Shown here one piece after another: positions 45,478-54,958 of a stretch of 64,000 nucleotides of DNA. Made by a program: the position numbers and the translations under genes. The notes under the pieces were generated by a model. The model saw only the letters and a program-made list of their open reading frames with translations. It made no database searches and was not told where the DNA came from. Source of the DNA: an uncultured Bacteriovoracaceae bacterium (GTDB taxonomy: Bacteria; Bdellovibrionota; Bacteriovoracia; Bacteriovoracales; Bacteriovoracaceae); the NCBI GenBank assembly GCA_938017795.1, contig CALIJZ010000021.1:1-64000 (forward strand). Direction: 5' to 3'. The stretch's first letter is position 1, and every line of letters begins with the position of its first letter.

Positions 45478-46410
45478 TTAAGAAGGATCTTTATAGAAAC
45501 TTACCTGATTTCGACCATTTTTCTTAGAGATATAGACTGCACTGTCAGCTCGTTTAAAGAGGTCTGTTCCATCTTCAACGCCTTGTCTATAATCAGCTAC
45601 ACCTATAGAAGCAAATACTGGAAGTTTTTTATTATCATATCTAAATTCGTGGTTTTCTATCATTTTTCTTATTCTCTCAGCAATTTCAAAACCTTGCTTT
45701 AAGTTTGTCTTAGGTAGTAAAATTACGAATTCTTCACCGCCATATCTAGCAAAAGTATCAATATCCCTAATCCCATGAAGCCTAATGACTTGAGCAACTT
45801 CTCGTAAGACATAGTCACCAGCGTCATGACCAAAGTTATCATTAAGAGATTTAAAGTGATCAAGGTCAAAAACTAATAATGTTAAAGGATCACCAGTCAC
45901 TTTAGATTTTTTAACTTCAAGTCCACAGACATTGTTAAAATACATTTTATTAAAACATTTTGTAAGACCATCTGTGTTGGCTTCACGGTGAAGTTTATCA
46001 TAGGCCAATCTTTCTGAATCACCTTTAGCGATAAACTTAAAGGCCATTGTCCCAACTTTTACCATATCACCTTTTTTCAAGATTCTAGGGTCAATGACTT
46101 GTTCGTTATTTACAAATGTTCCATTACTAGATCCAAGGTCTTGAATAGTACAATTGGCTTGAAGTTTATTAATATCTTTTGTTGTAATTTGAAAATGTTT
46201 TCTAGAGATACCTTGGAAGTCTAAAGTGACTCCATTTCCTGGACTTCTTCCAAAAGTTAATCCACCTGAATTTAAATCAAAGATAGTTCCGTTTAGATCT
46301 CCACCTACAACTACGAGACAAGCAACGCTTTTTTTAGCTTCATTATCAGTTGTGCTAAGAGCTTCGTGAATATCCGTAATCAAGACGGTTGAATTTTTAT
46401 CTTCAGACAT
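45478..46410 (-). CDS. FHA domain diguanylate cyclase
   Basis: The 310-residue cytoplasmic protein joins an N-terminal FHA domain (about 30-125: TFGRSPGN, ISRKHFQI and GSSNGTFVNN, for phosphothreonine recognition) to a C-terminal GGDEF domain (about 140-305). The active site GGEEF (224-228) is intact, and the inhibitory I-site RxxD (215-218) is in place, so it should make c-di-GMP with product feedback. The FHA link suggests control by a Ser/Thr kinase such as the PEGA kinase in this window. c-di-GMP could then be read by the PilZ-acyltransferase protein at 50424. It lies in the minus-strand run downstream of pgi. Confidence 0.92.
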   Translation of the reverse strand: MSEDKNSTVLITDIHEALSTTDNEAKKSVACLVVVGGDLNGTIFDLNSGGLTFGRSPGNGVTLDFQGISRKHFQITTKDINKLQANCTIQDLGSSNGTFVNNEQVIDPRILKKGDMVKVGTMAFKFIAKGDSERLAYDKLHREANTDGLTKCFNKMYFNNVCGLEVKKSKVTGDPLTLLVFDLDHFKSLNDNFGHDAGDYVLREVAQVIRLHGIRDIDTFARYGGEEFVILLPKTNLKQGFEIAERIRKMIENHEFRYDNKKLPVFASIGVADYRQGVEDGTDLFKRADSAVYISKKNGRNQVSFYKDPS

Positions 46411-49026: not shown

Positions 49027-50427
49027 GTGAGTTTTTTTTACAATTTATATATTTATCTTCTTCCAGAAGCTTTGCTAGAGAGCACAAAATGGCTACAAGA
49101 GTGGAAAACAAAGGTTAGAAATGATTTTAGTTCAACAGTATCTATTTTCTATTTCCTAGCTGGATTGGCATATATATTTCATTATTTTTTTGTTGATTTA
49201 CCCCAGGGCCTACAACCTCATAAGACTTGGCTGATATATCGTATGAGTATGGCTTCTTTATGTTTCTTATGTTTTCTGGGCTACAAGACTGAATTTTTTA
49301 TGAAGTTAAAGTTTTACAGACTTCCGTTTTTTATTTCCTGTATGATTATGTGTTACTTACAAACAAAAACAATTCACTGGTTTAGTGAAGTTCCATATCT
49401 ATACTCTTTTGTTCTGATTTTTGTTGTAGCTGGGGTTTCAAAATTAAATATACTATATAGCATTATCTTAACTACTAGTCTTTTTGTTCTTCAAATTAAC
49501 CTGTTTTTAGCATTGTCGGTAAATTTCTTAATGATAATTTCAGCATTCTCGGTAACTTTAATTTGCACAATATTCAATAAATATCAATTTAATCTAGATT
49601 TGAAATTATTTTTAAAAAACAAAGAGTTCTTAGAATCTGAACGTGAGAATGTTGAAGTTATACTCTCTTATTCTGATGAAATCAAAAAGTTTTTACCGAA
49701 AGAGATTTGTAAGCGAATTGAATATAATATGAATCATAATTCAATGAGTATCCTAAATGCTACCGAGGATGTTCTGAAACCAATAGAGAAGGAAATAGTA
49801 TGTTTGCATACTGATATTAGAGGGTTTACTGAAGCTTCAAAAGATACATTAGGATATTTAATGAATGGAGCCATTCCTGAAATTCAAGGATGTGTTCAAA
49901 GTATTGAGAATCATTCTGGGATTCCTAGGATCATAGGTGATTTAGTTCTTGCGTATTTTGATCATAATAGCCAGAAAGAAAATATTTTAAGAGCAATGAA
50001 ATCTAGCTTTGAAATTATAAGCCATAATAAAAACTTAAATACTGACAATGCATTTAAAGTAAAAAGATATTTAATTTTATCGATCGGACAAGCAATTGTT
50101 GGAAATATCGGAGGACAAACATCACGAGAGATAACTTCATTAGGAACTCCAGTAAACCTTGTGAGTAGAATTGATGAGGTAACTAAAATGCCTAGTTTTC
50201 AAGAAAAGGTTAATGCCGACTCATTGATATTGAGTAATGATTTTAAATTTTTTCTCAGAGATCAAGGGTTTGAATTTACAGAATTCAGTTTGAAAAAAAT
50301 AAATTTAGAAATTAGGAATTTTCCTCATGAAAGCAATATTTTAGTCCTTGATAAAACTAAACAGAACCAAAAGATTTTAGAAGATAATATTAAATCATTA
50401 AACTTTGACGGAGATTTAGCAGCATGA
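49027..50427 (+). CDS. Membrane-bound class III nucleotide cyclase, divergent active site
   Basis: The 466-residue protein has about six membrane segments (about 38-178) and a class III cyclase domain (about 250-440). Metal aspartates are present: D263 in HTDIRGFTEAS and D305 in RIIGDLVLAYF. The transition-state residues N377 and R381 stand in LGTPVNLVSRI. The adenine-selecting positions differ from typical adenylate cyclases: the K before the GD motif is R301, and the D after LG is T374. It may use another nucleotide or be weak. It starts at a GTG and is coupled by ATGA to the PilZ-acyltransferase gene. Confidence 0.82.
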   Translation: MSFFYNLYIYLLPEALLESTKWLQEWKTKVRNDFSSTVSIFYFLAGLAYIFHYFFVDLPQGLQPHKTWLIYRMSMASLCFLCFLGYKTEFFMKLKFYRLPFFISCMIMCYLQTKTIHWFSEVPYLYSFVLIFVVAGVSKLNILYSIILTTSLFVLQINLFLALSVNFLMIISAFSVTLICTIFNKYQFNLDLKLFLKNKEFLESERENVEVILSYSDEIKKFLPKEICKRIEYNMNHNSMSILNATEDVLKPIEKEIVCLHTDIRGFTEASKDTLGYLMNGAIPEIQGCVQSIENHSGIPRIIGDLVLAYFDHNSQKENILRAMKSSFEIISHNKNLNTDNAFKVKRYLILSIGQAIVGNIGGQTSREITSLGTPVNLVSRIDEVTKMPSFQEKVNADSLILSNDFKFFLRDQGFEFTEFSLKKINLEIRNFPHESNILVLDKTKQNQKILEDNIKSLNFDGDLAA

Positions 50428-51890
50428 AACCACTTCAAAAAGATAAGATATATTCATTAAAAGAATATAAAAAACAGAACTTAATTAAACCCCAAGAAGT
50501 TAGAGATGGTGAACACATTTCATCTCAAATTAAGTTTGAGAATTCATTTCTTGAATTTCGCGTTTGGCGAATTAGTCCCTTAGGTGTCGATGTTTTAGTT
50601 GATAAACAACTAGTCAAAAAAATTCAGAAACTAAATGTTTATGAAATGAAAATTTCTCTAGGACTTGAAAACGCTTCACTTAAAGGTTTAGTTACTTCGA
50701 TGGAGCCTAGGAATAATAATCAATATTTAGTTTGTTTAAGATACTTGCAATCTAAGGTCGATGAGTTAGATAAAGAAGAAAAAAGAAAGGATAAAAGAAT
50801 TCGTTTTCTAGATCAATTTCAACCAAGTGCCATTTTTTCAAACCCTTGCAGATTTAATGATTTTATTTATATGAAAGCAATTGATGTGAGTGCAAATGGG
50901 ATGCAGTTTAGAACTAGTCTTAGAAATAAATATATTGTCCCTGGCATAAAATTCTCAGTGACTGTAAATTTTCCATCTACAGGAGAGATAAATGTAAGTT
51001 GTAAAGTTATAAGTACAAGAGTAGAGAAAACGTTAAATGGTCAATACTATCTATTCATTGGAACAAAGTTTGAACGAATAGATAATCAAAGTCGATCAAT
51101 TATTGGACAATATTTAATACAATTTGGAGAGAATGTTGATTTGAAACTACTAATCCAAGAGGGTTTTAAAGTTGAAGAGGTCTCAAAAAGTATAACATAT
51201 ACTTATGCTAAGTCTGAAGATGATATGTATGATGTATTGAAGTTAAGAAAAAAGTGTTATGTCAGTGCAGGTAAAGCCTCTGAAGACAAAGAGTTAGAAA
51301 AATTTTCGGATAAATTTGATTCAAGGTCGAGAATCTTTTTAGTTAAACATCATGCAAAAGCTATTGGAACTGTAAGATTAATATTTAATAGTAATGAAAC
51401 GGACTCCGAACAAGAGAAACACTTGGGAGAATGGCCAGCAGACTTTCCTAACAAAAATGATGTTGTTGAAATAACAAGGGCCTGTACTGATCCGAATTAT
51501 AGGGGTAATGACCTTTTGTTGGACTTGTTTAAACAAATTGCTTTGGTAGTAACTCAATCGAAAAGAGAATGGGCAGTTATATGTGCAACTCCTAAAATGG
51601 CATCTTTATATAGAAAAATGGGTTTTAAGGATACTGGCTATAAGTATTTACATCCTGAACTTAACAATACTGAACATTTAGTATTAATGGGAAATGTTCC
51701 TAGGGCCATGGCAGGAGTTAATATCTCTCCATTTTACTGGAATGTTGTGTGGAAGGATGTTTCCCAACATATGAATAATTATAATTCTCTAAATATCTCC
51801 ACGCAAGATAGAATTAGAATGAATCTATATAGAAAGTTTAGTCCCATTTCCAATATTGCTAGAAAATTATATTTAAGGAAAAAGAAATGA
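50424..51890 (+). CDS. PilZ-domain acyltransferase fusion (FeeM-like)
   Basis: The 488-residue protein has a YcgR-N-like region (about 25-115), a PilZ domain (about 118-230) and an acyltransferase domain (about 255-430). The PilZ c-di-GMP residues are intact: RxxxR (121-125) and DVSANG (154-159). The acyltransferase shows IGTVRLIF, then VEITRACTDPNYRG (E349, R352), the arrangement of FeeM/LuxI-type N-acyl synthases. I infer that c-di-GMP binding gates transfer of an acyl chain from acyl-ACP to an amine acceptor. It is coupled by four-base overlaps to the cyclase before it and the methyltransferase after it. Confidence 0.82.
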   Translation: MKPLQKDKIYSLKEYKKQNLIKPQEVRDGEHISSQIKFENSFLEFRVWRISPLGVDVLVDKQLVKKIQKLNVYEMKISLGLENASLKGLVTSMEPRNNNQYLVCLRYLQSKVDELDKEEKRKDKRIRFLDQFQPSAIFSNPCRFNDFIYMKAIDVSANGMQFRTSLRNKYIVPGIKFSVTVNFPSTGEINVSCKVISTRVEKTLNGQYYLFIGTKFERIDNQSRSIIGQYLIQFGENVDLKLLIQEGFKVEEVSKSITYTYAKSEDDMYDVLKLRKKCYVSAGKASEDKELEKFSDKFDSRSRIFLVKHHAKAIGTVRLIFNSNETDSEQEKHLGEWPADFPNKNDVVEITRACTDPNYRGNDLLLDLFKQIALVVTQSKREWAVICATPKMASLYRKMGFKDTGYKYLHPELNNTEHLVLMGNVPRAMAGVNISPFYWNVVWKDVSQHMNNYNSLNISTQDRIRMNLYRKFSPISNIARKLYLRKKK

Positions 51891-52432
51891 AAATAATTAC
51901 TATCTTTAGCTGCATCTTAAATTTCATTTTGTTTGGGATGTCTATTTTTTATGTATTTAGAAAGTTTAACGATGACGGTTTTGATATAAAATTTTACCTT
52001 ATAAAATTCATATCACCTGCTTTTTGGTTATATGGGAGCTATGTACTTGTTAGCGGTAGTTATAGTTTTTACAAATTATTATTTCTTCTCTTGACGAATT
52101 TGTTAGCATCTATAATCTTTTATTTGGCATCGCAAGCAACAAAGAAAAATAAATTTGATATAATATTTAGTAAGTCGGCACCTGATAAACTAAATATGGA
52201 AGGGCCGTACCATTGGGTAAGACATCCTTTTTATACTAGTTACATTTTGAGTTATTTTAGCCTTTGTATTGTCACCTTGAATATTTTTCTTACTTTTATG
52301 GGGGTTGTTTTAATTAGTACTTATTTTATTGCAGCAAAAGAAGAAGAAAGTAAATTCTTAAATAGTGAATTTCAAGATAAATATTTTAAATACAAAAAAG
52401 GCACGGGGATGTTTTTTCCATTACTTTTTTAA
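51887..52432 (+). CDS. ICMT/PEMT-type membrane methyltransferase
   Basis: The 181-residue integral membrane protein has four or so spans and the C-terminal signature of the isoprenylcysteine/phospholipid methyltransferase family: GPYHWVRHPFYTSYIL (about 107-122), then AKEEESKFLNSEFQDKYFKYKKGTGMFFP. The HP and EE residues are part of the SAM-binding pocket. Members methylate carboxyl or amine groups of lipids at the membrane. It is translated with an ATGA overlap after the PilZ-acyltransferase gene, so the acyl product, perhaps through its free carboxylate, is an attractive substrate. That is inference. Confidence 0.82.
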   Translation: MKIITIFSCILNFILFGMSIFYVFRKFNDDGFDIKFYLIKFISPAFWLYGSYVLVSGSYSFYKLLFLLLTNLLASIIFYLASQATKKNKFDIIFSKSAPDKLNMEGPYHWVRHPFYTSYILSYFSLCIVTLNIFLTFMGVVLISTYFIAAKEEESKFLNSEFQDKYFKYKKGTGMFFPLLF

Positions 52433-52439
52433 TATTTCT

Positions 52440-52856
52440 TTAAGCGGCTTTTTTAGTAGTATTCTTATTGTCATTTTCGGTAATTTCTTTATTCATTTTT
52501 TTCATCTTCTGAATTAATTTACTAATTACAAATTTTGCATTTGGAGTAAATTTTTCAAAAAGCTCTTCATCTAACACTTTTAAAGTGACACTTTCTAAAG
52601 CCATAACAGAAGCAGTTCTTTCAAGATCATCAAAAAAGGCAAACTCACCAACAAAATTACCCGCTTCTATAGTCGTAACAGGTACACTATGGTCTGAATC
52701 ATCCTTGCAAAGAATAGCAACTTTACCTTTCTCAATATAATAGAGTTCAGTACTTATGTGTCCTTCACGAAATAAGAAATCACCAGTTTTTAGTTTTTTA
52801 ATCTTCATGCTTATATAATCGACATTCTCAGATAAAACTTTAATTTTTTTTCTCAC
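52440..52856 (-). CDS. Cyclic-nucleotide-binding domain protein
   Basis: The 138-residue protein is a single Crp-type cNMP-binding domain without a DNA-binding domain. The beta-barrel has GDFLFREGHISTELYYIEKGKVAI, and the phosphate-binding cassette is FVGEFAFFDDLERTASVMAL, with the conserved Glu and Arg that bind the ribose and phosphate. The start codon is GTG at 52856. No clear ribosome-binding site was found, and ATG starts within the frame are possible. It converges on the cyclase operon with seven bases between stops, so it may read the nucleotide made by the cyclase. Its output partner is not visible. Confidence 0.82.
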   Translation of the reverse strand: MRKKIKVLSENVDYISMKIKKLKTGDFLFREGHISTELYYIEKGKVAILCKDDSDHSVPVTTIEAGNFVGEFAFFDDLERTASVMALESVTLKVLDEELFEKFTPNAKFVISKLIQKMKKMNKEITENDNKNTTKKAA

Positions 52857-52877: not shown

Positions 52878-53306
52878 TTAGTGACCACGTCGGTGCCGAC
52901 GTTTTTTAATTAACATATTTAAAGATGAGTTTACTTTAATTGCGGAGTCTCCAGAGACTTTATTCATTGAAAGTGATTTCTTTTGAGCCTTAAATTTTCC
53001 ATTTGTTGTGGACATCTGTGAGAGAGCTTGAATCTTTGTTATCTTCGGAGCTGTTAAGTACTTGCTAGGTAAACACTTATTAGTAGTCACAAAACCTTTA
53101 AGCTTAGATTTCCCACAATCAACCTTAAAAAACTCAATCTCACTGATTCTTTTTGCCCGATTCACTGAAATAGCTTGATACTTACAACCTTTTTTCTTAA
53201 AAGATTCAATCTTATTTTCACACGCTAAAAATGCCTGTAAATGATTCAAGTCTTTTGAAAAAACATTAATACTAGCAAGTATTAGAAATATCATGGTCCC
53301 ATACAT
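52878..53306 (-). CDS. Small exported basic protein of unknown function
   Basis: The 142-residue product has a hydrophobic signal (MYGTMIFLILASINVFS, probably cut near residue 17). Four Cys residues (about 29, 41, 64, 78) could form two disulfides, and the C-terminus is strongly basic (IKKRRHRRGH). No family is recognised. It overlaps the upstream haem-lipoprotein gene by 16 bases, and the ATG at 53306 has GGAG seven bases upstream within that gene. An alternative ATG at 53294 exists. Co-translation with the haem lipoprotein suggests a related envelope function. Confidence 0.6.
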   Translation of the reverse strand: MYGTMIFLILASINVFSKDLNHLQAFLACENKIESFKKKGCKYQAISVNRAKRISEIEFFKVDCGKSKLKGFVTTNKCLPSKYLTAPKITKIQALSQMSTTNGKFKAQKKSLSMNKVSGDSAIKVNSSLNMLIKKRRHRRGH

Positions 53307-54958
53307 TGCGTGACTCCTAGGAAAAATTCAAGATCATCTTTACGTAATAATAAATCTTCTTTGATAAATGGAGATAAAGATCCATCTCCTCCAACATGTA
53401 CAAATTCAATTGATTCAGTAATTGTATGAAAGTCTAATGGTCCAAAGCCAAGGTTTGGTCCAGTCTCAGCCAGAGTAGGGAAGTATCCTCCATCGCTTGG
53501 ATTTTGATGAGAATTAAATGCTCCTGAATGACATGAATTACATGTATTAAGTGATGTTCTATACATAGCATAACTTGCTTCATGTGGATCTAATACAACA
53601 CCACTAAATGGTGGATTATTCTCTTCTTTTTTAGTGAAGAAATTTTTCCCCCAATTGGTTCCATTCTCAGTAGGGAGGCCACTAATAACTTGATACTCAA
53701 GATGCCAAGCAAGATGTTTTTGTTCAAATTCATAATCTTTATCTGGATCCCTGAGCGTTAAGAAGTTTGTTGTGAAGAAATTCATGATATCAAGTGATCC
53801 GTTAGCTGATGGTTGTGAAACATCTGAATTAATAATCAATGCTTCAGCAACATCTGCGTAATTATCTTTAGGGGTTTTAGGCATTCTATGTCTGTGTAGC
53901 CTTCCATCACTAGGGTCTAGGCGATATTCAAAAATTCCCCAAGCAACATCATTTGCATTTGTATTTTGATCTGATCGCAGTTGTAAGAAATCAGCTATTC
54001 TCAATTGACCAAGCGCACTTCCATTTACCCATTTATTTGTTGGGTAATCTGCATAAGCAACTCTTTTAGCTAGATTAGAAAGATGAGTATTATATTCTTC
54101 ACCTGATAGGCAGTTTAATTTCCCGAACTCAATGGCCCAGTCTTCTCTTGTGAATGAACCTTTATTTGCTCCGCTTATAGAAGCAGCTTCTAATGGTAGT
54201 TTAAATTCAAAAATAACATGATTTTCAAGTTCTATAGGAAAACCTTGATGCATTTGAGTACCAGCAATTTCGTCACGAATTTTGTATAGAAACCTAAATT
54301 CACCAGCATTAATTTCATTTCCATCGCTATCGACTTCAAAAAGATCTGGTCTATAAACAATTGCTTTTAATGTATAAGGACTTGAGCTTGGTAATAATAC
54401 TTTATTGGCATCAGGACCTAATGGTGGCCAATTATCTCGAATTGTATTTGCACTAATCTCTCTTGATCTTATATCATTTAATTCACCTGGTAATAGTTTT
54501 CCAGCTTCAATTTGTGTGGCACGATAGCCATCAATATAATCTCTTAAAAAAAGATTATAAGATCTAGCTCCTCGTAATGTATCGATAAGCTTATGAAAAC
54601 CAAATGGAGTATTAAATTCAGCAAGTAGAGCGGGGTCTTTAAAAATTAATGCTTTATTTATATCAATAGGCTTAATTTCTGAATTTGAATCACATAAACA
54701 TGCCTTAATATCCATAGTACTTGATGTCGTAGAAGATGAACTTGTAGATGATGATGAACTAGAAGTCGAAGACGATGACGAACTTGAACTAGAAGACGAA
54801 CTTGAACTAGAAGATGAACTTGAAGACGATGAACTCGACGATGATGAAGACGAACTTGAACTGGAAGTTGTAGTAGTAGATGAAGAATCTAAAGAGCTCT
54901 CCATTGTAGGCTTACAGCTTAAAAAACTAATCAATAAAACAAATAACGACTTATTCAA
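53291..54958 (-). CDS. Lipoprotein with poly-serine linker and c-type haem motif
   Basis: The 555-residue product has a lipobox (LLISFLSC, Cys15), then a Ser/Thr tract (about 21-81) and a large globular part with one CNSCH haem-binding motif (473-477). It is a predicted outer- or inner-membrane lipoprotein with a c-type haem. The remaining sequence resembles no family I can name. The tract begins six residues after the lipidated Cys and probably serves as a flexible spacer from membrane to body. Start is TTG at 54958 with GGAGG eight bases upstream. Electron-transfer or oxidase activity is possible; the distal ligand is not clear. Confidence 0.72.
   Translation of the reverse strand: MNKSLFVLLISFLSCKPTMESSLDSSSTTTTSSSSSSSSSSSSSSSSSSSSSSSSSSSSSSSSSTSSSSSSTSSSSTTSSTMDIKACLCDSNSEIKPIDINKALIFKDPALLAEFNTPFGFHKLIDTLRGARSYNLFLRDYIDGYRATQIEAGKLLPGELNDIRSREISANTIRDNWPPLGPDANKVLLPSSSPYTLKAIVYRPDLFEVDSDGNEINAGEFRFLYKIRDEIAGTQMHQGFPIELENHVIFEFKLPLEAASISGANKGSFTREDWAIEFGKLNCLSGEEYNTHLSNLAKRVAYADYPTNKWVNGSALGQLRIADFLQLRSDQNTNANDVAWGIFEYRLDPSDGRLHRHRMPKTPKDNYADVAEALIINSDVSQPSANGSLDIMNFFTTNFLTLRDPDKDYEFEQKHLAWHLEYQVISGLPTENGTNWGKNFFTKKEENNPPFSGVVLDPHEASYAMYRTSLNTCNSCHSGAFNSHQNPSDGGYFPTLAETGPNLGFGPLDFHTITESIEFVHVGGDGSLSPFIKEDLLLRKDDLEFFLGVTQCMGP
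54716..54898 (-). repeat. Low-complexity Ser/Thr-coding tract
   Basis: About 61 codons encode almost only Ser with some Thr. The Ser codons are mixed (TCT, TCA, TCG, TCC and AGT) rather than a single repeated triplet, so the protein sequence rather than a DNA repeat unit seems to be maintained. It spans residues 21-81 of the haem lipoprotein. Copy number could still vary between strains. Confidence 0.9.

Follow-up and report, generated by a model that had tools for sequence, protein, structure and literature searches.

The window analysed here comprises 64,000 nucleotides (nt) of an uncultured Bacteriovoracaceae bacterium (GCA_938017795.1, contig CALIJZ010000021.1, positions 1 to 64,000) and is part of a 71-kb contig in a genome of 2.86 Mb. 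Three genes follow each other on its plus strand. They encode a membrane class III nucleotide cyclase of 466 residues (49027..50427), a fusion of two PilZ-type domains to a FeeM-like N-acyl synthase (NAS) of 488 residues, here called PilZ-NAS (50424..51890), and an integral membrane methyltransferase of 181 residues that belongs to the family of isoprenylcysteine methyltransferase (ICMT) and PEMT (51887..52432). A single-domain protein of 138 residues of the type that binds cyclic nucleotide monophosphates (cNMP) is encoded convergently on the minus strand (52440..52856). Both junctions between the first three genes are 4-nt ATGA overlaps (50424-50427 and 51887-51890), and the genes apparently form one transcription unit. 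An initial annotation, made from the sequence alone, had proposed these four open reading frames (ORFs), a common mRNA for the three overlapping genes, a membrane cyclase and an ICMT-type methyltransferase, all of which our analysis supports. The association of PilZ-NAS with a class III cyclase recurs across the phylum Bdellovibrionota.

The cyclase scored 19.1 bits in Pfam, below the Guanylate_cyc cut-off of 21.9. However, a profile of 10 relatives matched CyaB at 1.3e-16 over the catalytic domain, and the AlphaFold model (pLDDT 85) showed six membrane helices (6TM domain, about residues 23-187), a long signalling helix and a class III domain (about residues 253-395). With Foldseek, the model matched the membrane adenylyl cyclase 9 (AC9) over the whole length with a query TM-score of up to 0.61, and further matches were CyaB, CyaC and Rv1625c. 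The metal-binding Asp263 and Asp305 as well as Asn377 and Arg381, the transition-state pair, are invariant across the 10 relatives. The position of the purine-specifying Lys is occupied by Arg301 and the Asp/Thr position by Thr370, and the substrate may be ATP or GTP. We conclude from the sequence and the model that the first gene encodes a class III cyclase despite its Pfam score. In genome G289, the 6TM domain of this cyclase is fused to a histidine kinase (L090, 3377-4657) and keeps the conserved residues Y49, H52, D57, W68, R72 and Q112, as expected for an input domain. The gene of this fusion lies 3' of genes for a 704-residue multi-helix membrane protein without a Pfam assignment and for an unassigned protein with PilZ-like sequence, and these genes overlap.

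The middle gene gave Pfam matches to FeeM (4.5e-15) and PilZ (1.4e-7), with a score for membership of the acyltransferase family of 56.2 bits versus 27. In the AlphaFold model (pLDDT 86), a YcgR-like PilZN-PilZ pair is followed by the FeeM-like acyltransferase, and Foldseek matched MrkH, PlzA, YcgR, FeeM (2g0b) and LasI (1ro5), with a TM-score of 0.70-0.75 between the NAS domain and FeeM 2g0b. The residues for binding of cyclic di-GMP (c-di-GMP) are intact, with R121xxxR125 at 50784..50798 and D154xSxxG159 at 50883..50900. The protein thus carries the YcgR-type signature, RxxxR plus [DN]xSxxG in a PilZN-PilZ architecture, and binding of c-di-GMP is predicted. The initial annotation had correctly named an acyltransferase with intact c-di-GMP residues; its PilZ part has to be corrected to the PilZN-PilZ pair. 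The acyltransferase motif E349-I-T-R352 is encoded at 51468..51479. Its glutamate E349, the candidate catalytic residue, is conserved in 34 of 36 relatives, so a loss of catalytic residues in homologues, which would have spoken against the annotation, was not seen. Sequence searches did not align it with Glu95 of FeeM 2g0b.

The third gene matched PEMT (1.9e-8) and ICMT (3.9e-6) in Pfam, and its profile matched the solved ICMT structure 4a2n at 3.1e-13. Besides this family profile, the RHPxY...EE..Y..Y...P motifs are present, as RHPFY and EE...Y..Y in the window. The equivalog model for isoprenylcysteine O-methyltransferase, NF040696 of NCBIfam, scored 45.7 bits, below its cut-off of 160. By its sequence, the protein is a member of the ICMT superfamily, and we do not file it as a true isoprenylcysteine methyltransferase.

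We surveyed 369 genomes of the phylum, and plasmids in addition. By profile search, PilZ-NAS relatives were found in 35 of the 369 genomes, distributed over 27 genera; named carriers of the fusion are metagenome-assembled genomes of Bacteriovoracaceae and Oligoflexia. The fusion is therefore not a peculiarity of this one genome. When the neighbourhoods were mapped at 37 loci, a class III cyclase was adjacent to or fused with 28 of the 36 mapped PilZ-NAS copies, and several of the others were cut by contig ends. Conversely, all 10 relatives of the 6TM cyclase with E<1e-20 in these genomes adjoin a PilZ-NAS gene. The proximity of the acyltransferase to cyclic-nucleotide synthesis, which had been pointed out for the window, is thus a recurrent link.

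The modules occur mainly in two forms. In type I (11 loci), the 6TM cyclase lies upstream of PilZ-NAS, usually together with an ICMT gene, and the cyclase/PilZ-NAS junction is exactly -4 nt in seven of these loci. At one type I locus that is cut by a contig end (L053), only the catalytic part of the cyclase is visible and the ICMT gene is convergent. In type II (16 loci), PilZ-NAS is combined with a GAF-cyclase, mostly with an additional haem-oxygenase-like gene (PF14518). Six type II loci (L064, L065, L066, L069, L070 and L074) encode PilZ-NAS, GAF and cyclase as a single polypeptide of about 1160-1180 residues, and a shorter polypeptide of this kind is encoded at L063. L071 represents a third form, with a 7TMR-DISM-cyclase, a short-chain dehydrogenase and PilZ-NAS. 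The distances between NAS domains and between cyclases are correlated, with a Mantel r of 0.75 for type I and 0.90 for type II, which can partly be explained by shared ancestry alone.

The two types differ in their additional enzyme. ICMT was found at 7 of 11 type I and 0 of 16 type II loci (Fisher p 4e-4, kinship ignored). The haem-oxygenase-like gene was found at 0 of 11 type I and 14 of 16 type II loci (Fisher p 6e-6, kinship ignored), where the PF14518 calls were checked with Pfam at two loci, one of them (L013) just under the cut-off, and made with a two-sequence profile elsewhere. Both enzymes together occur in no mapped locus. Taken together, our results show a conserved, co-encoded pair of PilZ-NAS and class III cyclase that is accompanied by alternative tailoring enzymes.

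Related proteins were also seen outside these forms. At L078 (136-3362), a NAS-like protein without PilZ is flanked by a haem-oxygenase-like gene and a GAF-cyclase. A plasmid of Rhizobium sp. T136 (L091:5665-7032) encodes a FeeM-domain protein with 21% identity to the PilZ-FeeM region, in which Pfam found no PilZ domain. This gene ends a cluster that also encodes an adenylate-forming enzyme and a halogenase similar to CmlS. In Rhizobium T1470, one ORF joins a FeeM protein of the same type to an alpha/beta hydrolase.

In the NAS tree, types I and II are clustered, and neither is a single clade, so that partners were apparently exchanged a few times. The window copy groups with copies from other families, whereas that of its congener G002, which has a long branch, clusters with the fused copies of type II. 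In both genomes, the copy occupies an equivalent slot, with an acyl-CoA dehydrogenase gene on one side and the cNMP gene on the other. In the congener G003, this slot (L087:6615-9533) holds an S-adenosylmethionine (SAM) methyltransferase protein and a different membrane class III cyclase; in G001, it is cut by contig ends. The G003 methyltransferase may resemble the PhcB-type synthases of fatty-acid methyl ester signals; NCBIfam and the plasmid annotation identify it only as a generic SAM methyltransferase. Its N-terminus appears PilZ-like by eye only, and no close relative was found among the 120 family genomes searched.

The convergent gene matched cNMP_binding at 7.2e-18. Its position and domain are as initially annotated, but its inclusion in the module did not hold. 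All four members of the genus have an orthologue, even G001 and G003, which have no PilZ-NAS. In G108, the gene occurs without a neighbouring cyclase. Outside the genus, a gene with a cNMP domain was found within about 2 kb of only three of the mapped modules. We therefore rejected the convergent gene as a core part of the module: it persists without PilZ-NAS, and nearly all other PilZ-NAS copies lack such a neighbour. It is a genus-level neighbour. Since a cyclase adjoins it in all three genus genomes with a readable slot, the cNMP protein may serve as a cyclic-nucleotide readout within this genus. On the other side of the module, at a distance of about 2.6 kb, the window encodes an FHA-GGDEF diguanylate cyclase (45478-46410) that is kept within the genus and is a possible source of c-di-GMP. 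Beyond the cNMP gene, the ORF at 53291-54958 encodes a lipoprotein-like product that has a CxxCH motif (CNSCH) and a long Ser/Thr tract of low complexity; it matched no Pfam family.

From these data we tentatively propose that together these genes encode a lipid-signal circuit of a c-di-GMP-gated synthase, a tailoring enzyme and a receptor cyclase, a reading that is plausible and about which we remain somewhat more sceptical than confident. Its observed basis is the gene association, the domain content and the conserved residues, from which we infer gating, methylation and lipid sensing. The PilZN-PilZ part would bind c-di-GMP and switch the C-terminal FeeM-type domain, which in turn would acylate an amino acid with the fatty acyl group of acyl-ACP or acyl-CoA. 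The ICMT-type enzyme would then methylate the free alpha-carboxylate of the lipid-amino acid, in analogy to the reaction of ICMT with prenylcysteine. The product, the methyl ester of an N-acyl amino acid, would be neutral and could stay in membranes or cross them. Where a module is of type II, the NAS product may instead be modified by the haem-oxygenase-like enzyme. The 6TM domain of the cyclase would sense the product lipid or a related one and set the cyclic-nucleotide output, so that signal synthase, tailoring and receptor would be encoded together in one operon. We propose lipid sensing by this domain because of its reuse on a histidine kinase and because of precedents. The membrane domain of Rv1625c can be replaced by that of CqsS (PMC4821796), fatty acids inhibit Rv1625c via its membrane domain (PMC12505454), and the membrane domains of mammalian cyclases respond to fatty acids and to the fatty amide anandamide (PMC11606603).

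Several observations weigh against this circuit. Four of the 11 type I loci have no adjacent ICMT, so methylation would not be essential. All type I PilZ-NAS proteins have RxxxR and 10 of 11 have [DN]xSxxG, but in many type II proteins one motif or both are lost from the PilZ part, and gating by c-di-GMP is therefore not general. The membrane domain of the cyclase was matched at the level of topology only; the sequence profiles reached the catalytic domain. Finally, NasP is reported to be directly activated by cAMP (Clardy and Brady 2007, as cited in PMC4897644 and PMC8762209). Control of the NAS by a cyclic nucleotide, as in NasP, is the main rival to the circuit. The cyclase would then sense another cue and its cyclic nucleotide would activate the NAS, with c-di-GMP as a second input and the lipid as the output, be it a signal, a surfactant or an antibiotic. 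The type II copies in which cyclase and NAS share one chain would fit such a reversed wiring. We consider it rather unlikely, as Pfam found no cNMP-binding domain in the window NAS, whose regulatory part is PilZN-PilZ, and the nearby cNMP protein stands outside the conserved module.

GNAT-type enzymes also initiate ornithine- and glycine-lipids. The module might accordingly remodel the membrane by making a structural aminolipid at high c-di-GMP, with the cyclase merely an operon-mate that regulates the same lifestyle switch. PilZ-NAS did match an ornithine N-acyltransferase weakly in NCBIfam, but its best family is FeeM and not the ornithine-lipid enzyme, no recognised second acyltransferase lies beside the module in the window, and the tight pairing with cyclases, up to fusion, would not be expected. 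This makes remodelling improbable. A chance neighbourhood of unrelated genes has a negligible probability, even though each component family is common individually. It was rejected because it is contradicted by the recurrence in many families and genera, the fusions, the overlaps, the correlated divergence of NAS and cyclase and the 10 of 10 cyclase relatives beside PilZ-NAS. Returning to the lipid-signal circuit, its complete form appears doubtful to us. In that form, the synthase of the cyclase ligand would be placed beside its receptor or, in some relatives, fused to it under the gate of c-di-GMP, and an N-acyl amino acid or its methyl ester would be read in a quorum-sensing-like manner into a cyclic nucleotide rather than by a LuxR-type regulator.

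The module is real and recurrent and consists of known parts; as an arrangement it is apparently undescribed. The initial annotation did not know the architecture as described; in part it had been anticipated. Thies et al. 2016 reported the metagenomic NAS-PilZ proteins Nas343 and Nas354 that make N-acyltyrosine, showed that the enzyme needs its glutamate for this and already proposed c-di-GMP control of such fusions (PMC4897644). Like PilZ-NAS, these proteins join a FeeM-type NAS to a c-di-GMP-type PilZ. However, the NAS comes first in them, with a single C-terminal PilZ modelled in place of the PilZN-PilZ-NAS order, and they were reported outside a biosynthetic operon and with no cyclase partner described. 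In the part of the literature that was searched for PilZ in combination with FeeM, N-acyl synthases or GNAT enzymes, we found neither a NAS-cyclase operon or fusion nor a description of the ICMT/haem-oxygenase-like alternation. NasP shares the control of a NAS by a cyclic-nucleotide second messenger, but is activated by cAMP directly, whereas the window NAS has PilZ domains and a co-encoded cyclase gene. Tailoring of NAS products by other enzymes is known from the stieleriacine and oxazolone pathways (PMC12479983, PMC12856293) and from FeeG, which catalyses the oxidative decarboxylation of N-acyltyrosine (PMC8762209).

The single components resemble well-characterised proteins. FeeM and LuxI-type acyl-homoserine lactone synthases such as LasI share the acyltransferase fold with the window NAS and presumably also the E-x-[ST]-R motif, but have no PilZ domains and no cyclase. 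YcgR, MrkH and PlzA are c-di-GMP receptors with the same pair of PilZN and PilZ domains and with RxxxR where the two meet; they lack an acyltransferase domain. The ICMT 4a2n shares the membrane methyltransferase motifs, and its known chemistry is carboxylate methylation on a lipidated amino acid. Here, no prenylated protein is in sight, and the neighbouring gene suggests the substrate. The 6TM class III cyclases Rv1625c/Cya and mammalian AC9 have the same order of 6TM domain, signalling helix and catalytic domain, and to our knowledge none of them is co-encoded with a cognate ligand synthase. It has long been asked which cues the large membrane domains of class III cyclases perceive. For Rv1625c and the mammalian enzymes, as for the quorum sensor CqsS, the membrane domain has been reported as a receptor of lipids or autoinducers. 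When a bacterial operon places a lipid-amide synthase next to such a cyclase, the synthase product becomes a specific candidate for the ligand, and the question can be put to the test. In Roseovarius, lipid-amide compounds of this kind are known and no candidate synthase genes were found (PMC11580390). If the proposed circuit is true, a single operon would link c-di-GMP, lipid signals and cyclic nucleotides in a phylum that is known for its predators.

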